Shown piece by piece: positions 6,401-45,237 of a stretch of DNA of 64,000 bases. A program made the translations under genes and the position numbers. The stretch covers positions 11,163,870 to 11,227,869 of the forward strand of contig NC_049983.1 in NCBI RefSeq assembly GCF_000003815.2. The letters run 5' to 3'. Source of the DNA: Branchiostoma floridae. Lineage: Eukaryota; Chordata; Leptocardii; Amphioxiformes; Branchiostomatidae. A model generated the notes under the pieces. It did not search any database. It was not told the origin of the DNA and saw only the letters and a list, made by a program, of their open reading frames with translations. Position 1 is the stretch's first letter. Every line of letters starts with the position of its first letter.

Positions 6401-6681
6401 GTTGAAGAGGTTCATCAGTCACGTATGCAAACAGTTACAACAAATTTTCATCAATCAATGACTAGTCATTGATTGATGAAAATTTGTTGTAACTATGTTG
6501 TCCTAATATTACATATTGGGCCTCTAAAAAAAATGCCGGACATTTTTCCTGCAGGTATGATGGTCAGTCCCTACAGAGCAGTATCGAGGCGTATGACACC
6601 ATCACGGACAGCTGGGAGGTGGTGTCCAACATGGCCACACAGAGATGTGATGTGGGCATAGCCGTAGTGTCAGAGGTGTAA
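442..6681 (+). CDS. KLHL12: KLHL12 ortholog: BTB-BACK-kelch CUL3 adaptor (5' end outside window)
   Basis: Exons: 442-595, 1615-1832, 2530-2679, 2985-3099, 3493-3599, 4037-4241, 4541-4648, 5001-5150, 5770-5956, 6555-6681 (stop TAA 6679-6681). All junctions are GT-AG and the phases close, giving 506 codons here against 568 residues in human KLHL12, so about 60 N-terminal residues (start of the BTB fold) are missing on the left. The first exon ends the BTB domain ([18 protein letters not shown]). Exons 2-4 form BACK ([30 protein letters not shown]). Exons 5-10 carry six kelch blades, each with GG plus a Tyr/Trp pair ([73 protein letters not shown]). Family knowledge: KLHL12 bridges CUL3 to substrates such as SEC31A (large COPII coats) and Dishevelled. 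Near-identity across the kelch repeats makes the assignment firm. Confidence 0.95.
748..1222. repeat. Pair of direct repeats in KLHL12 intron
   Basis: A phrase of about 55 bases (CCAACAGGGAAAGTGCTCTA then CCTTCACATGC) at about 748-802 recurs with small changes at about 1165-1222 (CCAACAGAGAAAGTGCTCTA then CCTTCACATGC). The roughly 400 bases between contain A-rich runs and nothing coding. It could be the terminal repeats of a small degenerate element or a local duplication. Confidence 0.4.
2195..2465 (+). repeat. tRNA-derived SINE in KLHL12 intron
   Basis: An A-box-like segment (GTAGCTCAACTGGTAG, about 2203-2218) is followed about 55 bases later by a B-box-like segment (GGTTTAATCCC, about 2272-2282), then a non-tRNA body. 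Spacing and order match an RNA polymerase III promoter of a tRNA-derived SINE. There is no foldable acceptor stem, so it is not a tRNA gene. It lies in the intron between the exons ending 1832 and starting 2530, in sense orientation. Confidence 0.55.
3735..3860. repeat. Palindromic MITE family (copy in KLHL12 intron)
   Basis: Sequence with inverted ends around ACTCAAGCAACTGGATAT and its degenerate complement near 3850. Related copies lie at about 13060-13210, 13725-13825 and 15115-15195 (CCDC78 introns), and there is a better preserved, differently sized relative at 22955-23090. All contain phrases such as AATGGTCAGACATTTCAGAC and AGTTGCTTGAGTAA. They look like short non-autonomous hairpin elements; the superfamily is unknown. 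Confidence 0.4.
5505..5700 (+). repeat. Degenerate LINE reverse-transcriptase tail in KLHL12 intron
   Basis: Plus-strand reading with tolerated stops gives RGRPRKS(stop)MECVRRD followed downstream by [11 protein letters not shown]. This resembles the extreme C-terminal region of non-LTR retrotransposon polymerases (RGRPrKtW...DvvreDlk...ARdR..Wr). It is in-frame damaged and lies in the intron before the exon at 5770. Tentative relic. Confidence 0.35.
6433..6494. repeat. 62-bp perfect palindrome in last KLHL12 intron
   Basis: Two 31-base arms meet with no spacer at TGACT|AGTCA, starting AGTTACAACAAATTTTCATC and ending in its exact reverse complement. The phrase CTATGTTGTCCTA occurs just before (about 6387) and again just after it (about 6492). 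It lies 60 bases upstream of the final exon. Confidence 0.9.
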
Positions 6682-7046
6682 CTGGTAACAGGGTATCAGA
6701 CAGAAAAGTATTTAAATTGAAGTATTTTGGATTCAATGCAACTTTGGGCTGTTCCATTTGTAAAGTTTAGGAGAGATGGTCTGGACCTTAATTTTTTTTT
6801 TATCTTATAAGATATTTGACCTCAAGCTCCAGCTGTAGGCTGGACAAATTCAATTCAGTTAAAAAAAGAATAGACCCTCTGGCTAGATTTTCAGTACGTT
6901 TTGACATGGAATGTTTATTTTGGAGAAGAGGAAATGTTTTATTTACACTGTATTTTTGCCTTGAAAGTCACTAGTGTTACTTGTTGTCACATATTTATTT
7001 TAATTACACTGGTAATTTTATTGTTTTCAAGGTCACTTTTATTGTG

Positions 7047-36731: not shown

Positions 36732-39700
36732 ATGGTGAGTTTCAGAACAAGTTAATGTATTACTGTATCTACCAATGTAGAAATTCGGTCTGTTCTTCTC
36801 GTTAATGTTTTGTCAACCGTAGAAGTGGTAGAGGTGGGAGGGGGGCGAATAAAATTTTGTGAGTGGACTAGAGTAACTTTTGTTCATGGTGAGTGCAGAG
36901 TGCATGCGTTGCTTCAAAACTTTGAAAATTTTATCACAAGAAGGGCTACACATTATAGAAACAAATATCCTATTCTACAAGCAGATGTCACTTTAGATGT
37001 CCTTAATTATGTCCAAGACTAGGCTCAGTGGGTTCACCCCGGTCAGCCTCTTTACCGGAAAACACAGGAAAACACACGAAGGAGTGAATAATCTACTGAA
37101 ATACAGTATGTTTTGATGAGTAAATATGACAGGTCGCTATGTTTTGCCACAGAATAATCTACATATGGCCCTGGAATGAAGAAATTGTCAGAAAAATATG
37201 CATGACACGACGGGCCGGACCGCCGCCGCCACCCGGCGGACTGGACGTGCTGATTGTGCAAAATTATGTAACGTTGACGGCTAGAAGAAGCAAGAAATAC
37301 AGAAAACAGATTCTTATCACAATCCGAGTAGATTCATATATATTATATTTATGCCAATATATAACGGATTTTTGCACTGAAGTTCGGTAGATATCAGCTG
37401 TCTTGTTGTGAAATATCAGACCCCAGAAAACAAACATTATTCTGCAATGANNNNNNNNNNNNNNNNNNNNNNNNNNNNNNNNNNNNNNNNNNNNNNNNNN
37501 NNNNNNNNNNNNNNNNNNNNNNNNNNNNNNNNNNNNNNNNNNNNNNNNNNATGGCTGAGCATGAGATGAGATGGGACAACTATAGTCACATTCGTTGTAC
37601 AGTTTAGGAAGGTTGTCAGAACTTTAATCATTTCCACGGGAATGATCCACTAAGCTAGGAGAGGCAGTCATTCATTACATAGGTAAACATGACATTTTTA
37701 CTGTAATAATAATATACATGTAGTAATTTGTACTTGTGATGAGGGTTCGTATAAGAAAATAAGTTTATAAAGCAAAGTTGCTTTCATCCATGACACCAAT
37801 TCCTCTGCCATTGAAGTCTGAAACTTTTGCTGCTTGATTATAAAGTGCTGCTAATGTCTTGTTATATCTGAACCTTTCTTTTGTCTTGTCAGCTGGTCTG
37901 GGAGAATTTCGGATACGAGACTTGAATGATGAGATCAACAAATTACTGAGAGAGAAGAAGCACTGGGAGGAGAGAATAAGGGAGCTAGGGGGTCCTGACT
38001 ATGAGGTATGAGCTATGACATTTGTGATATCTCTTGGCTACATGATTTTCAGGATCCATCTATCTATTATTAATGTTTTAATGTTGGTTAAAAAATAATG
38101 TGTGGTTTGTTTTTTGTATTGCCTGGAATGTCCTGAATCTATCAAGATACATACTTCACTTCAGAAAAATGGCATATGAAATGTCAGGTTGTATTTTAAA
38201 ATGGAGTGAATTTATTCTTAGCTATAAATGTCAGAGAGCATGAGGAATGAATCCACTTTACTTCATGATCAAGTGAAATATCCAATGAGAATTTTCAGTT
38301 GTATGAAACCTTGAAGGTAACCCTTTTGTTAAATAGTTATTCTTTCTTTTTTCCAGAGAGTTGGACCAAAGATGTTAGACCAGGAGGGCAAAGAAGTCCC
38401 TGGTAATAGAGGATACAAGTAGGTGTCAGTTTGTATATTTGTAACAAAACTCCCAGTGGTAAAAGATTAGTCTAGATAGTTTGTTCTGTTTGTTTCTTCT
38501 ATTGTACCAATCAACCAATACAGTCAAACCTGTCTATAGCGGCCACTCAAGGGACTGCTCAAAATTGGCCACTATATAGAGGTGGCCACTATAGAGAATA
38601 TGCTAATTAATTGACCACAAGCAATACGTTACACATGGTTTTAGTACCCACTGATCTTTATTCACATAATACAGTACTGTACATGTACTGCAATGATTTT
38701 TACACTATATGTATTAAGAAAACAAAACATATAAAAAGTTTTAAATGTTCTACAGTTGATATTGTCTGAAGAGACCGGTATCATATTTCGTTGATCTTTC
38801 GTCTTGTATCCTTTGATACTTCGCCGTCCGTGTGTTCTCGCTCGCGCTCACACGTCAGATTCGCCCATTATGCTAATGTGGTACTCACAAGAAAAGTCAC
38901 GTCATTTTAGACTTATCTCTTAATAAATGTAAGAAAACAATCCACCATAGTCTGAAGTTCATATCATTTTGTCTTTGTAACAATTTATTTAGAATGTTTT
39001 TGTAATGTAAATTAACATCAGCGATAGTGTATACATGTATTAGAACGTAACTTTGCCACAATTTACCTCCGTAATAGTGGTGTCGTCTATTGACCTTATA
39101 TGACCTCGTTTGTCAGCCAGTTTAGGAAGTTTTGTTTTGAAAATAAGTCAAAGAGGTTTTAAATCCGGCGTAGGGTGACGATACGGCCGCTGTATATGGC
39201 CGAACGCGTGCCGAAACATAGATCAGCGGTCCGCGTGGCCGTAATCGGCAGTGTTTTTGTACCTGCGGGACCGGAAATCGTGTGGCCGTGGCCGCGTTGG
39301 ACAGGTGGCCGCTAAGCCTATTTCTTAATCATTACGAATCCAAGGGACCGACAAAAAGTGGCCACTATGGGCAGGTGGCCGTTATGCAAAGGTGGCCGCT
39401 AATACAGGTTTGACTGTATTGCCAAGGAGCTTTTATATTACAAATAGTTGCAAGATAGAGTCCATTCCAAGTCACCATGAGGGTTTTTAGGTGATATTTG
39501 TAATAAGTCTGAATTATTTTGAATAAAAGAATATCTAAACCACAATAATTAAATTATTTTCAAAGAAATGACTAAGAAAATACTCATCTATTTTAATTCC
39601 TTTGAACATTTTAGAAACGTTTTGAAGGTAACTGTGCAGAAATATCTTTATTTAGAATAATTGTGAAACCTCTGTGTGATTCTACAAACTATTAATTATT

Positions 39701-42700
39701 TTTATCATAACTGCTTTATAATCCACAGTGTTCTTCCCTTCATGCTGAAGTTCTGAATGACTTTTAGCACAAGTTCCCATTGTTTTCCTGTAACACATTC
39801 TCTGCTTCCCATTTTGCATCAGATATTTTGGAGCAGCAAAGGACCTTCCAGGAGTAAGGGAACTGTTTGAACAAGAACGTAAGTCATTATATTTCAGCCA
39901 TACCACAGGTATACCACTTCTTCTTTCTCCTTTCTCCTGTCAAATCTTCAAAATGCATTATCTCCATCGTTCCTGGACCGCAAAACTAGAAATTTGGCAC
40001 AAGGGTAGACTGGGCCAATACTCCCAGACTTTTTTTCATTTTTTTCATATCTGCCCCTAAAATGATTTCATTGAGTTTTTTTTTGGTCTTTTTTGGCCTG
40101 TGCCCTGGGATGACCTGAAATTTTGCACAAAGGTGCCTTGATTATATGCCCACACAGATTCAATAACAGTTTTGGCATACAGTACAACAAAATGCTAAAT
40201 TTTGCAATTTTTTGGCCAAAAACTTTTTTTGACAAAAAAAGTACATCTTTGTATCCTGTACCCTGGTTTTACAACTGAATGACCTGAAATTTGGTATAGG
40301 AGTGCCCTGCACAAATGTGCACATGGAATCACACTTTTGGCAATCAGTATAATAAAATGCTTAATTTTGCGATTTTTTGGCCATTTTTTATTTCATTTTT
40401 TTTTTTTTAAGTACATTTTTGTATCCTGTTTTATTTACTACCACTGCCGCACCACGTGGTGAGCTATGTCCAGTATCAGGGTGAAGTGCACGAAGTTAGG
40501 GTGTACGAAGTTGTACGAAGTTGTACTAAGTTACAACCGTTTCCCATTGGCTTTGATGCTATATCGGGAGTCACAGATGACGTCAAAACATTTATTGGAT
40601 GACGTAATCTAACTTCGTACAGTAGGCAGGGTAGGGTGTCAAGTGTACGAAGTTGTCCGAAGTTGTGCAAAGTTACGTGACGTCATCTAACTTCGTACAG
40701 TAGGCAGGGTAGGGTGGCATGTGTGCGAAGTTGTCCTAAGTTGTGCAAAGTTACGTGACGTCATCTAACTTTGGACAGTGGGCAGGGTAGGTCAACAAGT
40801 GTGCGAAGTTGTCCTAAGTTGTGCAAAGATAAGTTACGACATCTAACTTTGGACATTGGGCAGGGTAGGGCGGCATGTGTGCGAAGTTGTCCTAAGTTGT
40901 GCAAAGTTACGTGACGTCATCTAACTTTTGACAGTGGGCAGGGTAGGTCAACAAGTGTGCGAAGTTGTCCTAAGTTGTGCAAAGTTACGTGACGTCATCT
41001 AACTTTGGACATTGGGCAGGGTAGGTCAACAAGTGTGCGAAGTTGTCCTAAGTTGTGCAAAGTTACGTGACGTCATCTAACTTTGGACAGTGGGCAGGGT
41101 AGGTCAACAAGTGTGCGAAGTTGTCCTAAGTTGTGCAAAGTTACGTGACGTCATCTAACTTTGGACAGTGGGCAGGGTAGGTCAACAAGTGTGCAAAGTT
41201 GTCCTAAGTTGTGCAAAGTTACGTGACGTCATCTAACTTTGTACAGTAGGCAGGGTAGGTCAACAAGTTAATTAATACATAGTAAAAACTTATATATGTG
41301 TAAATAAGATACACACCACTCACGCATATAAACAAATAAAATATAGATGCACATTAATCAGCACAAAATCAATGTTCATGCAATGTAAAAAAATTCATTT
41401 ATTTCAATTTTTTGTCTTTTATTTCTCCTCTTAACGTTCGTTTTAACAATGCACACAAAATAATTTAAGTTCACTCTTAATATTATATTTCCCTTTTTTT
41501 ACGTCACTTCTAAATACAAGTACCTGAAAACATCTCCCCTATCTACTTATAAACTACATGTATTGCAGTCATCTTTCACTACTTTGTATCATAAGAAGTA
41601 GTAGAGTCTAGTTGTTATTTTATTCCTTGTAATTTAACAATTAATTGAAGTACTTCCACCATTTAGTACAGAAGTATGCCATTTTCTGCCTGCACGGTCA
41701 CACCCCTTTTACATAGAAAGACTGTTTAAATTGATCTCCTTTTATTGGTTGTCAGAGCAAAGTCGTTGTCATCGTCTGCATCACATAGTGGAGACAGCAG
41801 CGTTGAAGCGGCGCACAGCTTCCTTTTCTCTCCCCCGATCACATCGTTTGCCTCAATGGACTTATTCATGTCTTCTTCTGCTTCGCTGTGTTTTAATTAA
41901 AAAGAAATTGTCACTCACTAATGCCAACGTTAATTGTTGTCGTCGCTATTTATCGTTTCACGATTCATTTAATCATCTCATCAATGCTATCTTTTCGAAG
42001 ACAACGCTAACACTAAACTAAACAAAGCAATAGCAAATAATAAAATCAGGTAAACAACATTAAGTAGCTGGTCATTTTAACTACTTTATATTAAGAATAG
42101 CGTATAATAAATAATCCTTATGGAAACAGATTTCGACGCAAAAATGATCAACATCATCGCAATTCTGTATACATTAAAAAATCAATTTTCCGCTTACCTA
42201 TCATCATTGATCCCCGCTAATAGATGTTTAGAAAGAATAGAACAAATGAAATAAAAGCAGCCGTGGCGCAATACAGAGATTGAAAAACGACACCATTCTA
42301 CGAACGCATTCCGGGTTCGAATTTCAAAAAAACACCTGAGCAAATGACGTAAATGTCTGTTGGTGACATTAAGCAAAAGAATGTTCGACAAGGTATGGTT
42401 CTAGAAATGACGGTTGTAAATTTTGAACATATAACGTTATATCTACATTGAATCAAACGTTTGATTTGAAACAATAAAAAGGTGTTAAGAAGTAAATCTA
42501 CCTGTTGGCAGACAGATGGCTGTCCACAGAAGAACATTTTCCCTCCATTTGGTGTCAGGTGGAGAGACTTGTGCATGGCTTACAGCAAAAGCCGCGACCG
42601 TGATAAGGCTATATAAAACAGCCACCGTTAGCACGCACAAAACAGATGCAACAGCACAACATCCCTGTGAAGAATAAGACAAATCTTAATAAAGATAAGT

Positions 42701-45237
42701 AATCTGCATTCTGATAAAAAAATCTGTTGTTTTGTAAGATGTAACTTCTAAAGAATATAAGATTTATGAATCAAAAGTCAGAACTCAAAACATATCAAGG
42801 TGCGATTAATACGACTAACCCACCTGAACAAATTCTTCCGGAAAATCCTTCCAGTCAAAGTCGACTCTCCAGGACGAATGGAGATCTGTAGCCTTCAACG
42901 ATTTACTGCACGACATGATATGATATAATATTGTTCGTAATTCCCCCGTTAAAAAAATCTATTTCGTCAAAGACACGGACTAAAAAGTAGCCGTGGCGAC
43001 TTCATCGCCACACGGTTTCAAACTGTTAGACTGAAAAACGACACCGTTCGAAGAACGCATTCCGGTTTCGAATTACGAAAACACCTGAGTTAGTGACGTA
43101 AACGTCAGATTGTGACGTCTAAGAAGATGAGAACATTAGAAAAAAGGTTCTAGAAATGACAGTTGAGACATTTGAACGTAACACAGAAAACTTGTAGACG
43201 CGTAGTGAAGTATATGTATCGCCAAAGTCATGCTAGGCGACATCTTCCTAGGAATACGCGACCTGATCAGTACACCCGGCTGACTGTCCAAAGTTTAGAT
43301 GACGTCATGGTTAGCGTGACGTCATAACTTCGGACAAGTTCGTACAACTCCGTACACCACCCGGCTGACTGTCCAAAGTTTAGATGACGTCATGGTTAGC
43401 GTGACGTCATAACTTCGGACAAGTTCGTACAACTCCGTACACCACCCGGCTGACTGTCCAAAGTTTGGATGACGTCATAACTTCGGACAAGTTCGTACAA
43501 CTTTGGACAACTTCAGACATCTAACTTAACTTAGGACAACTTCGTGCATTTCACCCTGATACTGGACATGGGTGCACGTGGTCTGCATGTTTTGTTCAGA
43601 GTATAGAAAGATTAACCATTTGAAAAGTTGTATTTCAAAAATACTTAAGAATGTTGTAAAACTGTCTCCTTTAGCCCCAGCCCCTCCAAGAAGAACTAGG
43701 GCAGAGCTGTACAAGGAGGTTGATGCAGACTATTATGGGTACCGTGATGAAGATGATGGTGTGCTGGTCCCACTGGAACAAGATCTTGAGAAAGAAGGTT
43801 AGATGCCAGGAAGAAGTGTTTTATTCATTTACTCTCCCAATAGTTTGTCCTATTGTATCCTACACGCAGTAAACCTAAACACCCCAAACAACCTCAAACG
43901 GCTTTAATATGTATTGTACATGGGCAACAACCTTGTATGGTGCTCTGAATACATTGTTTATGCATTTGTAAATTTAAAAATGCAGCAAGTCCTAAGTATA
44001 TTAGAGTCATTTGAGGTTGTTTGATGTGTTTAGGCAGACCCTCCTAGAGGCTCCTACACAGATCTTCTATGCAGTAGAGTTGAACGGTGTAAAGAGAAGG
44101 GATGAAAAAGCTGCAAAACATATTATCGGGTACATCTGTCAATAACTCTTTTTTCTAAAATTCAATTGTACAGAATTATTTTCAGGATGATAGTCTAGTG
44201 CCTCTAGTACTGTTAATGAATATTTTGTGACATATTATATGTATATAGATTCTATGTGATATTTCTCTATGTCAGTGGAATATAGAATCCGAACCTTAAA
44301 TGTGATGTGTATTTGTGACTCAGTTGTAGCTGAGACAGTGGCTGAGTGGAAGTCCCAGAAAGAGGCAGGGCTGCTGAAGGATGTGGAGGAGGAGGAGGAC
44401 ATCTATGCTGTGGAGGAGGAGTCAGATGAGGAGGAGACAGGGGAGAGTAAAATGTAGGAAACAGCTAGTTTTTGTTCGTACCATATTATCAATATGTTAA
44501 GTGGTGAAAAGTTTTCAATAATCATAAATCATAATACATTTCTGAAGAGTAGACAAATAGCAAAATGTTTTACAAGGTCCCTGACAGGGCTTTGAATATT
44601 GTTCTACCCCACCCATTGTTTGGGAGCCCATGTTCTTAAATTTCATTTTGATGTACGAAAATACATTGGAATCAATTTCATGAGGTTAAGATTTTTTTGG
44701 ACGGATGGAGCTGATTTTTTTTATCCCAAGATGCAAGTTTTGTTGTCTCAGTACAGTTCTTGAGACATCCCCAATCTCTGAAATTCAAAGAGTGGATACA
44801 TAGGACATGTATATTGATCAATCCATGCCTGCATGCTTCTTCAAAGTTTTCCCATAACAATGTACAGTAGTGCTAGAAGCTGTCTAATTGCACAGCCCTT
44901 TGCCAGTGTATTTCGTGCAATTTTCCAGGTGTTACACCAACGCAAAGTTATCCAGCTGGACTGCACCGGTTTGGGATTTTGGGATTCCATGCAATTGACA
45001 GAAGTGTGTGATAATCCGTTTGCATTGTGCAATTAGCTGACTTCTACTGTACCACTGTCTCTTCACAGGGAGACAGAGGAAGGTCAGCAGCAGTTCATCG
45101 CACACGTACCAGTTCCATCCCAGAAGGAAGTAGAGGAGGCCCTCCTCAGAAGAAAGAAGATGGAACTCCTTCAGAAATATGCCAGCGACTCACTCATGGA
45201 GCAGAGCAAGGAGGCAAAAACTCTCATGGGATTATGA
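36732..45237 (+). CDS. ISY1: ISY1 pre-mRNA splicing factor (second exon region lost in gap)
   Basis: Exons found: 36732-36734 (ATG directly before GTGAGT), 37893-38005, 38357-38418, 39823-39878, 43675-43797, 44330-44453, 45069-45237 (stop TGA). Phases agree from 37893 on. The protein matches human ISY1: [99 protein letters not shown], the acidic [17 protein letters not shown], and [20 protein letters not shown]. About 60 N-terminal residues expected after Met were not found anywhere between 36735 and 37892; that interval contains a 100-N gap (37451-37550). ISY1 belongs to the NTC/XAB2 complex that acts in catalytic spliceosomes. The intron at 39879-43674 carries a 3.1 kb element with its own gene. 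The initial ATG micro-exon is inferred from position and Kozak-like context. Confidence 0.9.
37451..37550. other. Assembly gap (100 N) in ISY1
   Basis: A round 100-N run, usually meaning unknown size, exactly where the ISY1 exon(s) encoding the first 60 or so residues should lie. Confidence 1.
38521..39416. mobile_element. Pogo/Tigger-like non-autonomous element, copy 2 (896 bp)
   Basis: Same inverted ends and TA flanks as the copy at 30510-31434 and the same orientation. Differences are a few substitutions and small indels (for example a missing ATCATCTGG stretch and a missing CGGGTATGGGTAGCGC stretch). It lies in the ISY1 intron between 38418 and 39823. Confidence 0.85.
39950..40440. repeat. 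T-rich degenerate tandem repeat in ISY1 intron
   Basis: Three loosely similar units each contain GACCTGAAATTT(T)G(C/G)(A/T) ... AAGGTGCC or AGTGCCCTG, a CACA-rich phrase, ACAATAAAATGC or ACAACAAAATGC and a long T run. Degenerate direct repeats of about 180 bases. No coding content. Confidence 0.6.
40480..41270. repeat. Left subterminal array, about 78-bp units with TGACGTCA
   Basis: About nine units reading GTGCGAAGTTGTCCTAAGTT, GTGCAAAGTTACGTGACGTC, ATCTAACTTTGGACAGTGGG, CAGGGTAGGTCAACAA. I count eight exact TGACGTCA palindromes (the CREB/ATF consensus), one per unit except a unit near 40835 where it is mutated. Units become more alike away from the terminus, suggesting recent expansion. 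Confidence 0.93.
41619..41624 (-). terminator. Poly(A) signal of the nested gene
   Basis: TTTATT on the plus strand is AATAAA on the minus strand, 102 bases past the nested gene's stop codon. It is the first canonical signal downstream, which supports the gene model. Confidence 0.6.
41726..42916 (-). CDS. Nested four-exon gene in transposon: unknown 144-aa single-pass membrane protein
   Basis: Minus-strand exons: 42916-42824 (ATG; donor CAG|GTGGGT), 42664-42502 (acceptor CTTCACAG; donor ACAG|GTAGAT), 42216-42198 (19 bases; acceptor CTATTAG; donor GATAG|GTAAGC) and 41885-41726 (acceptor AACACAG; stop TAA). Phases 0, 1 and 2 all match, yielding 144 residues. Residues 1-31 are polar with [10 protein letters not shown]. 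Residues about 33-60 are a hydrophobic membrane segment ([20 protein letters not shown]..). Then come [20 protein letters not shown] and an acidic tail with [15 protein letters not shown] and DADDDNDFA, ending in basic KRRS. No family recognised; it does not resemble a transposase. Topology cannot be decided: the segment could be a signal anchor. It is encoded on the strand opposite to ISY1, wholly inside the 3.1 kb element. Hand-built model without transcript support. Confidence 0.6.
42257..42435. repeat. Internal 180-bp module, copy in intron 2 of nested gene
   Basis: GCCGTGGCGCAATACAGAG, TGAAAAACGACACCATTC, GAACGCATTCCGGGTTCGAA, AAACACCTGAG and GGTTCTAGAAATGAC recur in order at 42986-43184. 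The phrases TGGCGCAAT and GGGTTCGAATT have the look of degenerate A and B boxes about 50 bases apart, so the module may be tRNA- or SINE-derived. It covers the 19-base exon's upstream intron, not exons. Confidence 0.75.
42986..43184. repeat. Internal 180-bp module, copy upstream of nested gene
   Basis: Second copy of the module at 42257-42435, located 70-270 bases upstream of the nested gene's ATG, where its promoter should be. It includes GTAGCCGTGGCG, AAAACGACACCGTTCGAAGA, CATTCCGGTTTCGAATTACG and TGACGTAAACGTC. Confidence 0.75.
43265..43530. repeat. Right subterminal array, about 80-bp units with TGACGTCA
   Basis: Two and a half units of CACCCGGCTGACTGTCCAAA, GTTTAGATGACGTCATGG, TTAGCGTGACGTCATAACTT, CGGACAAGTTCGTACAACTC. 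They contain five exact TGACGTCA palindromes. This is the inverted, diverged counterpart of the left array (GTCCAAAGTT against AACTTTGGAC). Confidence 0.92.

Follow-up and report, generated by a model that had tools for sequence, protein, structure and literature searches.

Zisupton elements are reported to make 8-bp duplications, and the same source documents fungal DNA transposons that carry TET/JBP genes as passengers (PMC12730594). DUF3987 domains have been predicted to act as helicases in the replication of mobile elements (PMC5862659). We have analysed a stretch of 64,000 nucleotides from Branchiostoma floridae (the window), together with the genome to which it belongs (513 Mb in 431 contigs), and found that an intron of ISY1 contains a transposon copy with 8-bp duplications and the remains of a DUF3987 gene. 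In our view this copy is probably an internally deleted, non-autonomous derivative of a KDZ-like transposon whose parent encodes a DUF3987 ATPase. To judge from titles and abstracts, none of the open-access papers listed in our searches describes a eukaryotic transposon with a DUF3987 gene, and the parent element may therefore be a new variant; it may also be already catalogued in Repbase or in subscription papers.

The transposon copy in the ISY1 intron and its family

An earlier note on this DNA had read four minus-strand exons (42916-42824, 42664-42502, 42216-42198 and 41885-41726) as a gene for a membrane protein, carried by a transposon and nested antisense in an ISY1 intron. All four exons are in the sequence, every junction has GT-AG borders and the phases claimed, and the 435 nt translate into 144 residues and a stop, followed on the same strand by the AATAAA. 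The surroundings were also described correctly: the ISY1 exons adjoining the element match Pfam Isy1 (E = 1.4e-11), and near-identical inverted ends flank the four exons. The features of the element are as follows.

40453..40460: left target-site duplication, CACGTGGT
40461..43574: whole transposon copy, 3,114 bp, 5'-GAGCTATGTCC...GGACATGGGTG-3', delimited by its ends and the 8-bp duplication
40466..40497, plus strand: left terminal inverted repeat, 32 nt, with 97% complementarity to its right counterpart
40522..41289: left subterminal array of 78-nt repeats
41619..41624, minus strand: AATAAA, 3' of the stop, read from the sequence
41726..41885, minus strand: exon 8, the last of the DUF3987 gene, still present, with the acidic tail and the stop
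42198..42216, minus strand: 19-nt 'micro-exon', a deletion scar in which intron 2 is fused to the end of exon 7
42502..42664, minus strand: exon 2 of the DUF3987 gene, still present, with a hydrophobic stretch and, at its end, the opening half of the Walker A loop
42824..42916, minus strand: exon 1 of the DUF3987 gene, still present
43273..43527: right subterminal array of 85-nt repeats, the third copy 60% alike
43538..43569, minus strand: right terminal inverted repeat, 32 nt
43575..43582: right target-site duplication, CACGTGGT

Within the element, a stretch of 155 nt is directly repeated (window 42277-42431 and 43028-43180, about 77% alike); its first copy contains a tRNA B-box-like motif, GGGTTCGAATT, and the repeat may have arisen by duplication within the element or from an old SINE. 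Elsewhere in the window, at about 37450-37550, there is a run of N (a gap or a masked stretch), which appears as X in translated frames.

The ends of the element are those of a family. A search for the 20-nt end, with up to 3 mismatches, gave 106 forward and 102 reverse matches in the genome, against 20 and 28 for a reversed-pattern control. Among the exact matches listed, which extend into C13, at least 37 pairs of ends converge, over spans of 247-6,225 bp; the longest of these is locus L009, and 34 of the 37 are at most 3.3 kb apart. The duplications recur as well, since 16 of the 21 pairings of ends in the loci read are flanked by 8-bp sequences identical at 8/8 positions and one by a 7/8 match, with four having none; these 21 pairings correspond to 20 elements, L051 having been paired twice, its second pairing being among the four, and leave three elements without a match. 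Of about 20 further left ends, six were examined (L049-L054): five belong to copies with both ends, at distances of 925 to 2,233 bp, and at L053 no right end was found. Some arrangements of ends are unusual: two end sequences lie 7 nt apart at C11:13090426-13090472, an end-to-end pair of 247 bp occupies C10:11575662-11575908, and two facing ends fall within 46 bp at C7:3985096-3985141.

The interior of the element is also repeated, the stretch 41700-42950 having 62 DNA matches in the genome, and the whole of it being present at four places, the window among them. We have read 20 matching regions. In ten copies within them the sequence corresponding to about window 41677-42206 is absent, and hence the last exon. 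Four of the regions (L009, L010, L011 and L012) run on past window 42202 into sequence that the window lacks, and L009, in which both flanks are present, has 2.8 kb between the positions equal to window 42202 and 42207. The 2.8-kb deletion is thus directly observed and, because its break falls inside the 19 nt, the micro-exon is a deletion scar: comparison with L009 assigns its first 9 nt to intron 2, where they precede the genuine acceptor of exon 3, and its last part to the 3' terminus of exon 7 together with the exon 7 donor. The identical scar is found at two more loci, on C19 (L027, the same as L002) and on C17 (L028), while a motif search found none in L026, though this locus aligns on either side of the break. 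What stands of the original gene call is therefore that part of a protein gene rides in a member of a transposon family; its reading as a complete four-exon gene does not.

A larger copy at C12:15823957-15829302 was considered, and 2.1 kb of its middle (L055) proved repeat-like, with no transposase recognised by eye. Beyond the element, L010 and L011 have no likeness of at least 70 nt to the other loci read, and two open frames of L010 have no Pfam match. L009 contains, on the minus strand at 6565-6945, an open frame of 126 residues in element sequence that is absent from the window copy, likewise without a Pfam match.

The DUF3987 gene of the longer copies

In L009 the minus strand has eight exons with GT-AG borders, spanning about 4 kb, and the parent gene has about 590 codons; its exons 1, 2 and 8 are those left in the window. 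The match to the Pfam family DUF3987 (PF13148) was obtained with exons 1-3 of L009 alone (4.6e-10, 39.7 bits), with exons 4-8 of L012 alone (8.4e-7, 28.9 bits) and with the two parts joined (3.8e-21, 76.1 bits), all three scores being above the curated cut-off of 27 bits. In addition, the parent protein matches a PHROG family named 'DNA helicase' (3.4e-12), the exon 2/3 junction of L009 creates PTGAGKST, by eye a Walker A motif, and exon 3 encodes LQIRDE, by eye Walker B-like. The predicted product of the parent gene is a helicase-like P-loop ATPase of the DUF3987 family. The statement that the product resembles no known family is thus not supported, although the 144 residues, taken alone, give a single Pfam match, to DUF7475 with E = 0.09, and none to DUF3987. 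The proposed membrane segment fares no better. Parent residues 47-112, which include the hydrophobic stretch, align to positions 7-72 of the DUF3987 profile, just before the Walker A loop, so that this stretch would be part of the ATPase domain and not a membrane segment.

No intact DUF3987 gene was found among the copies read. Exons 4 and 6 of L009 are shorter than those of L012 by 19 and 33 nt; exons 1-3 are missing from L012, whose exon 5 contains one stop and whose exon 7 shows CTG in place of the CAG acceptor of L009; L010 has a frame shift in exon 6 and no exons 1-3 in the stretch read. A DUF3987 profile search of the genome, in which exons are searched singly, returned nothing at E <= 0.001. 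A degenerate, strongly diverged DUF3987 relative (38-53% identity) is present at C12:14174727-14175767, 32 kb from a CxC5 piece. Outside this genome, no relative of the parent protein was found in viral contigs with six peptide patterns or in phages with the 232-aa middle part as query, and plasmids gave one weak match, a 'Primase 2' of Calothrix (34.9% identity, E = 7e-4). The 590-aa protein has no primase domain according to Pfam and no sequence match among solved structures at E <= 1. The capture of a host gene, which had also been put forward, finds no support here among the listed protein matches in the genome (80 and 24): none looks like an intact host gene, and they are element copies or diverged pieces, most with stops. 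It should be noted that this check covers listed matches, and that few of the diverged places were read.

The exon chain of the window had been regarded as unlikely to close in frame by chance. We found, however, that 153 of 200 dinucleotide shuffles of 41726-42916 also close in frame at 144 residues or more, when GT-AG chains with at most three introns of at least 50 nt, and exons of at least 9 nt before a donor, are allowed; under the same rules the unshuffled strand permits closed chains of up to 215 residues. We accept exons 1, 2 and the last exon as real because they are homologous to those of longer copies, and not on their splice signals alone. The shuffles weigh against the view that the four exons constitute a real small membrane-protein gene, either transposon-specific or captured, as do the origin of the micro-exon and the ten copies that lack the last exon. 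Two observations speak for that view. The deletion keeps the frame, and its scar is shared with the loci on C19 and C17; and exons 1 and 2, compared in 16 copies, are free of deletions, whereas the non-coding columns next to them have 17, and their rate of substitution per site is lower (0.0101 in exon 1 and 0.0065 in exon 2, against 0.0143 in non-coding sequence). However, the synonymous bias that the earlier note proposed to look for among copies did not emerge, since the 24 non-synonymous, 6 synonymous and 2 stop changes in these exons are close to the unconstrained expectation of 0.70/0.26/0.04 and would fit an absence of constraint; these counts are rough because shared changes enter once per copy and insertions are left out. 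Among the insertions is one of 6 nt in exon 2 of L023. Taken together, we consider a real small gene highly improbable. The 144-residue product is most likely a non-functional remnant, as it would lack the second half of Walker A, which is deleted in the window copy, and the rest of the ATPase.

The parent frame shows a different pattern. Between exon 7 and its diverged relative L019 (on C18) there are 13 synonymous changes in 27.8 sites against 11 non-synonymous changes in 92.2 sites (Fisher P = 0.0002), and this difference in rate indicates that the parent frame has been under constraint in this exon.

CxC5-type exons and the candidate transposase

DUF3987 exons were observed in several longer copies, and one of these, L012, also has CxC5-type exons. 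Its left end is the same as that of the family, and a plus-strand open frame at 5073-5489 matches CxC5, which Pfam describes as a 'cysteine cluster associated with KDZ transposases', with E = 5.6e-5 and 23.7 bits against a cut-off of 26.9. This frame is followed by two exons rich in cysteine and histidine (C/H exons), at about 6409-6534, the start being approximate, and from 6836; they have GT-AG borders and are joined in frame. The C/H exons match no Pfam family; we take them to resemble KDZ proteins. Neither the CxC5 nor the C/H exons, nor any transposase, were found in L009, and among the copies read there is none with both the DUF3987 and the CxC5 genes.

Four observations would be expected if the element belonged to another superfamily that makes 8-bp duplications, and if the CxC5 exons of L012 came from a second, inserted element. 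The CxC5 match is under the gathering score; the profile of the KDZ core, PF18758, has 12 matches in the genome, none of them near L012 and, among the end matches listed, none near transposon ends; no right end of L012 is present within the 8.5 kb read; and its CxC5 stretch occurs at no other place in the genome at high identity. Moreover, 8-bp duplications are not specific to KDZ, being also made by the hAT, P and Merlin superfamilies. Against this alternative, a stretch of 325 columns is common to L009 (6295-6619) and L012, where it lies between the CxC5 and the C/H exons. The internal 155-nt repeat, perhaps an old SINE, makes up about the first half of it, and the evidential weight is therefore on the second half; this half (L009 6450-6619) is found, among the matches listed, only at places that have other parts of the element too. 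Also against it, the exon order from CxC5 to C/H is repeated at C13:4893988-4895730, and CxC5 or C/H exons, found at five places (C6, C12:14142242, C12:14352045, C13 and C18:5167835), have DUF3987 sequence no more than about 35 kb away at all of them except C13. This sequence is adjacent at C6, and at distances of 7 to 32 kb in the other three cases (C12:14174727, 32 kb; L010, 25 kb; C18:5160855, 7 kb). These co-locations are support and not proof, because they possibly reflect repeat-rich neighbourhoods and because on C18 the exon 7/8 piece and the C/H exons are on the same strand, unlike the arrangement in L012. On balance we consider membership of another superfamily unlikely, and it seems that a KDZ-like protein and a DUF3987 ATPase are combined in the parent family.

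A putative two-gene parent and its relation to known systems

We propose that a single intact element once contained both genes, the minus strand encoding the eight-exon DUF3987 P-loop ATPase and the plus strand, in divergent orientation, a KDZ/Zisupton-like CxC5 protein. The latter would be the transposase, and would move the short copies in trans via the common ends and subterminal repeats; the window copy keeps the ends and subterminal repeats that such a trans-acting transposase would need. The ATPase would be an accessory factor in moving or replicating the element. As a tentative extension, to which we give clearly less weight than to the derivation of the window copy, an animal KDZ-like lineage might have its own DUF3987 ATPase, with a gene divergent from that of the transposase, and use it to move or replicate the element.

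The DUF3987 gene may instead be an acquired passenger, the transposase alone sufficing and the ATPase having no part in transposition. Consistent with this possibility, most of the listed end pairs (34 of 37 at no more than 3.3 kb) are too short for a gene of about 4 kb, so that the gene would not be needed in cis, and the TET/JBP genes in fungal DNA transposons provide a precedent (PMC12730594). Against this reading, the listed genome matches include no host copy that is intact, and the presence of CxC5-type exons near DUF3987 sequence at several diverged places suggests that the two have long been associated, although neither observation shows a role in transposition. We therefore hold the passenger reading to be possible and yet doubtful.

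In summary, the gene call has been corrected, and would otherwise have entered annotation as a new membrane protein. The analysis points to a family of animal DNA transposons with a gene whose helicase family is known from mobile elements of prokaryotes. Should the ATPase contribute to transposition, the KDZ-like group would gain a second component that can be tested; if the whole proposal is true, an animal DNA transposon would have taken up a helicase family of prokaryotic mobile elements and would operate as a system of two proteins, assisted by the ATPase.

With respect to known systems, the family resembles KDZ/Zisupton elements in its inverted ends, its 8-bp duplications and, as a candidate feature scoring just under the Pfam cut-off, the CxC5 cluster on one long copy, L012; it differs from them in that the KDZ catalytic core was not seen in the stretch of L012 read, and in that it carries a DUF3987 gene. 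The predicted parent protein is like the prokaryotic DUF3987 (PF13148) ATPases of mobile elements in matching the Pfam family over most of the domain and in having, by eye, the Walker A and Walker B-like motifs; unlike those of bacterial and archaeal mobile elements, it is encoded by a spliced eukaryotic gene and is without a primase domain. Finally, with MITE-like non-autonomous derivatives the family shares common ends, internal deletions and short copies (247 to 6,225 bp among the listed pairs), but it is distinguished from them by long subterminal arrays and by the exons that remain of a gene either accessory or passenger in kind.
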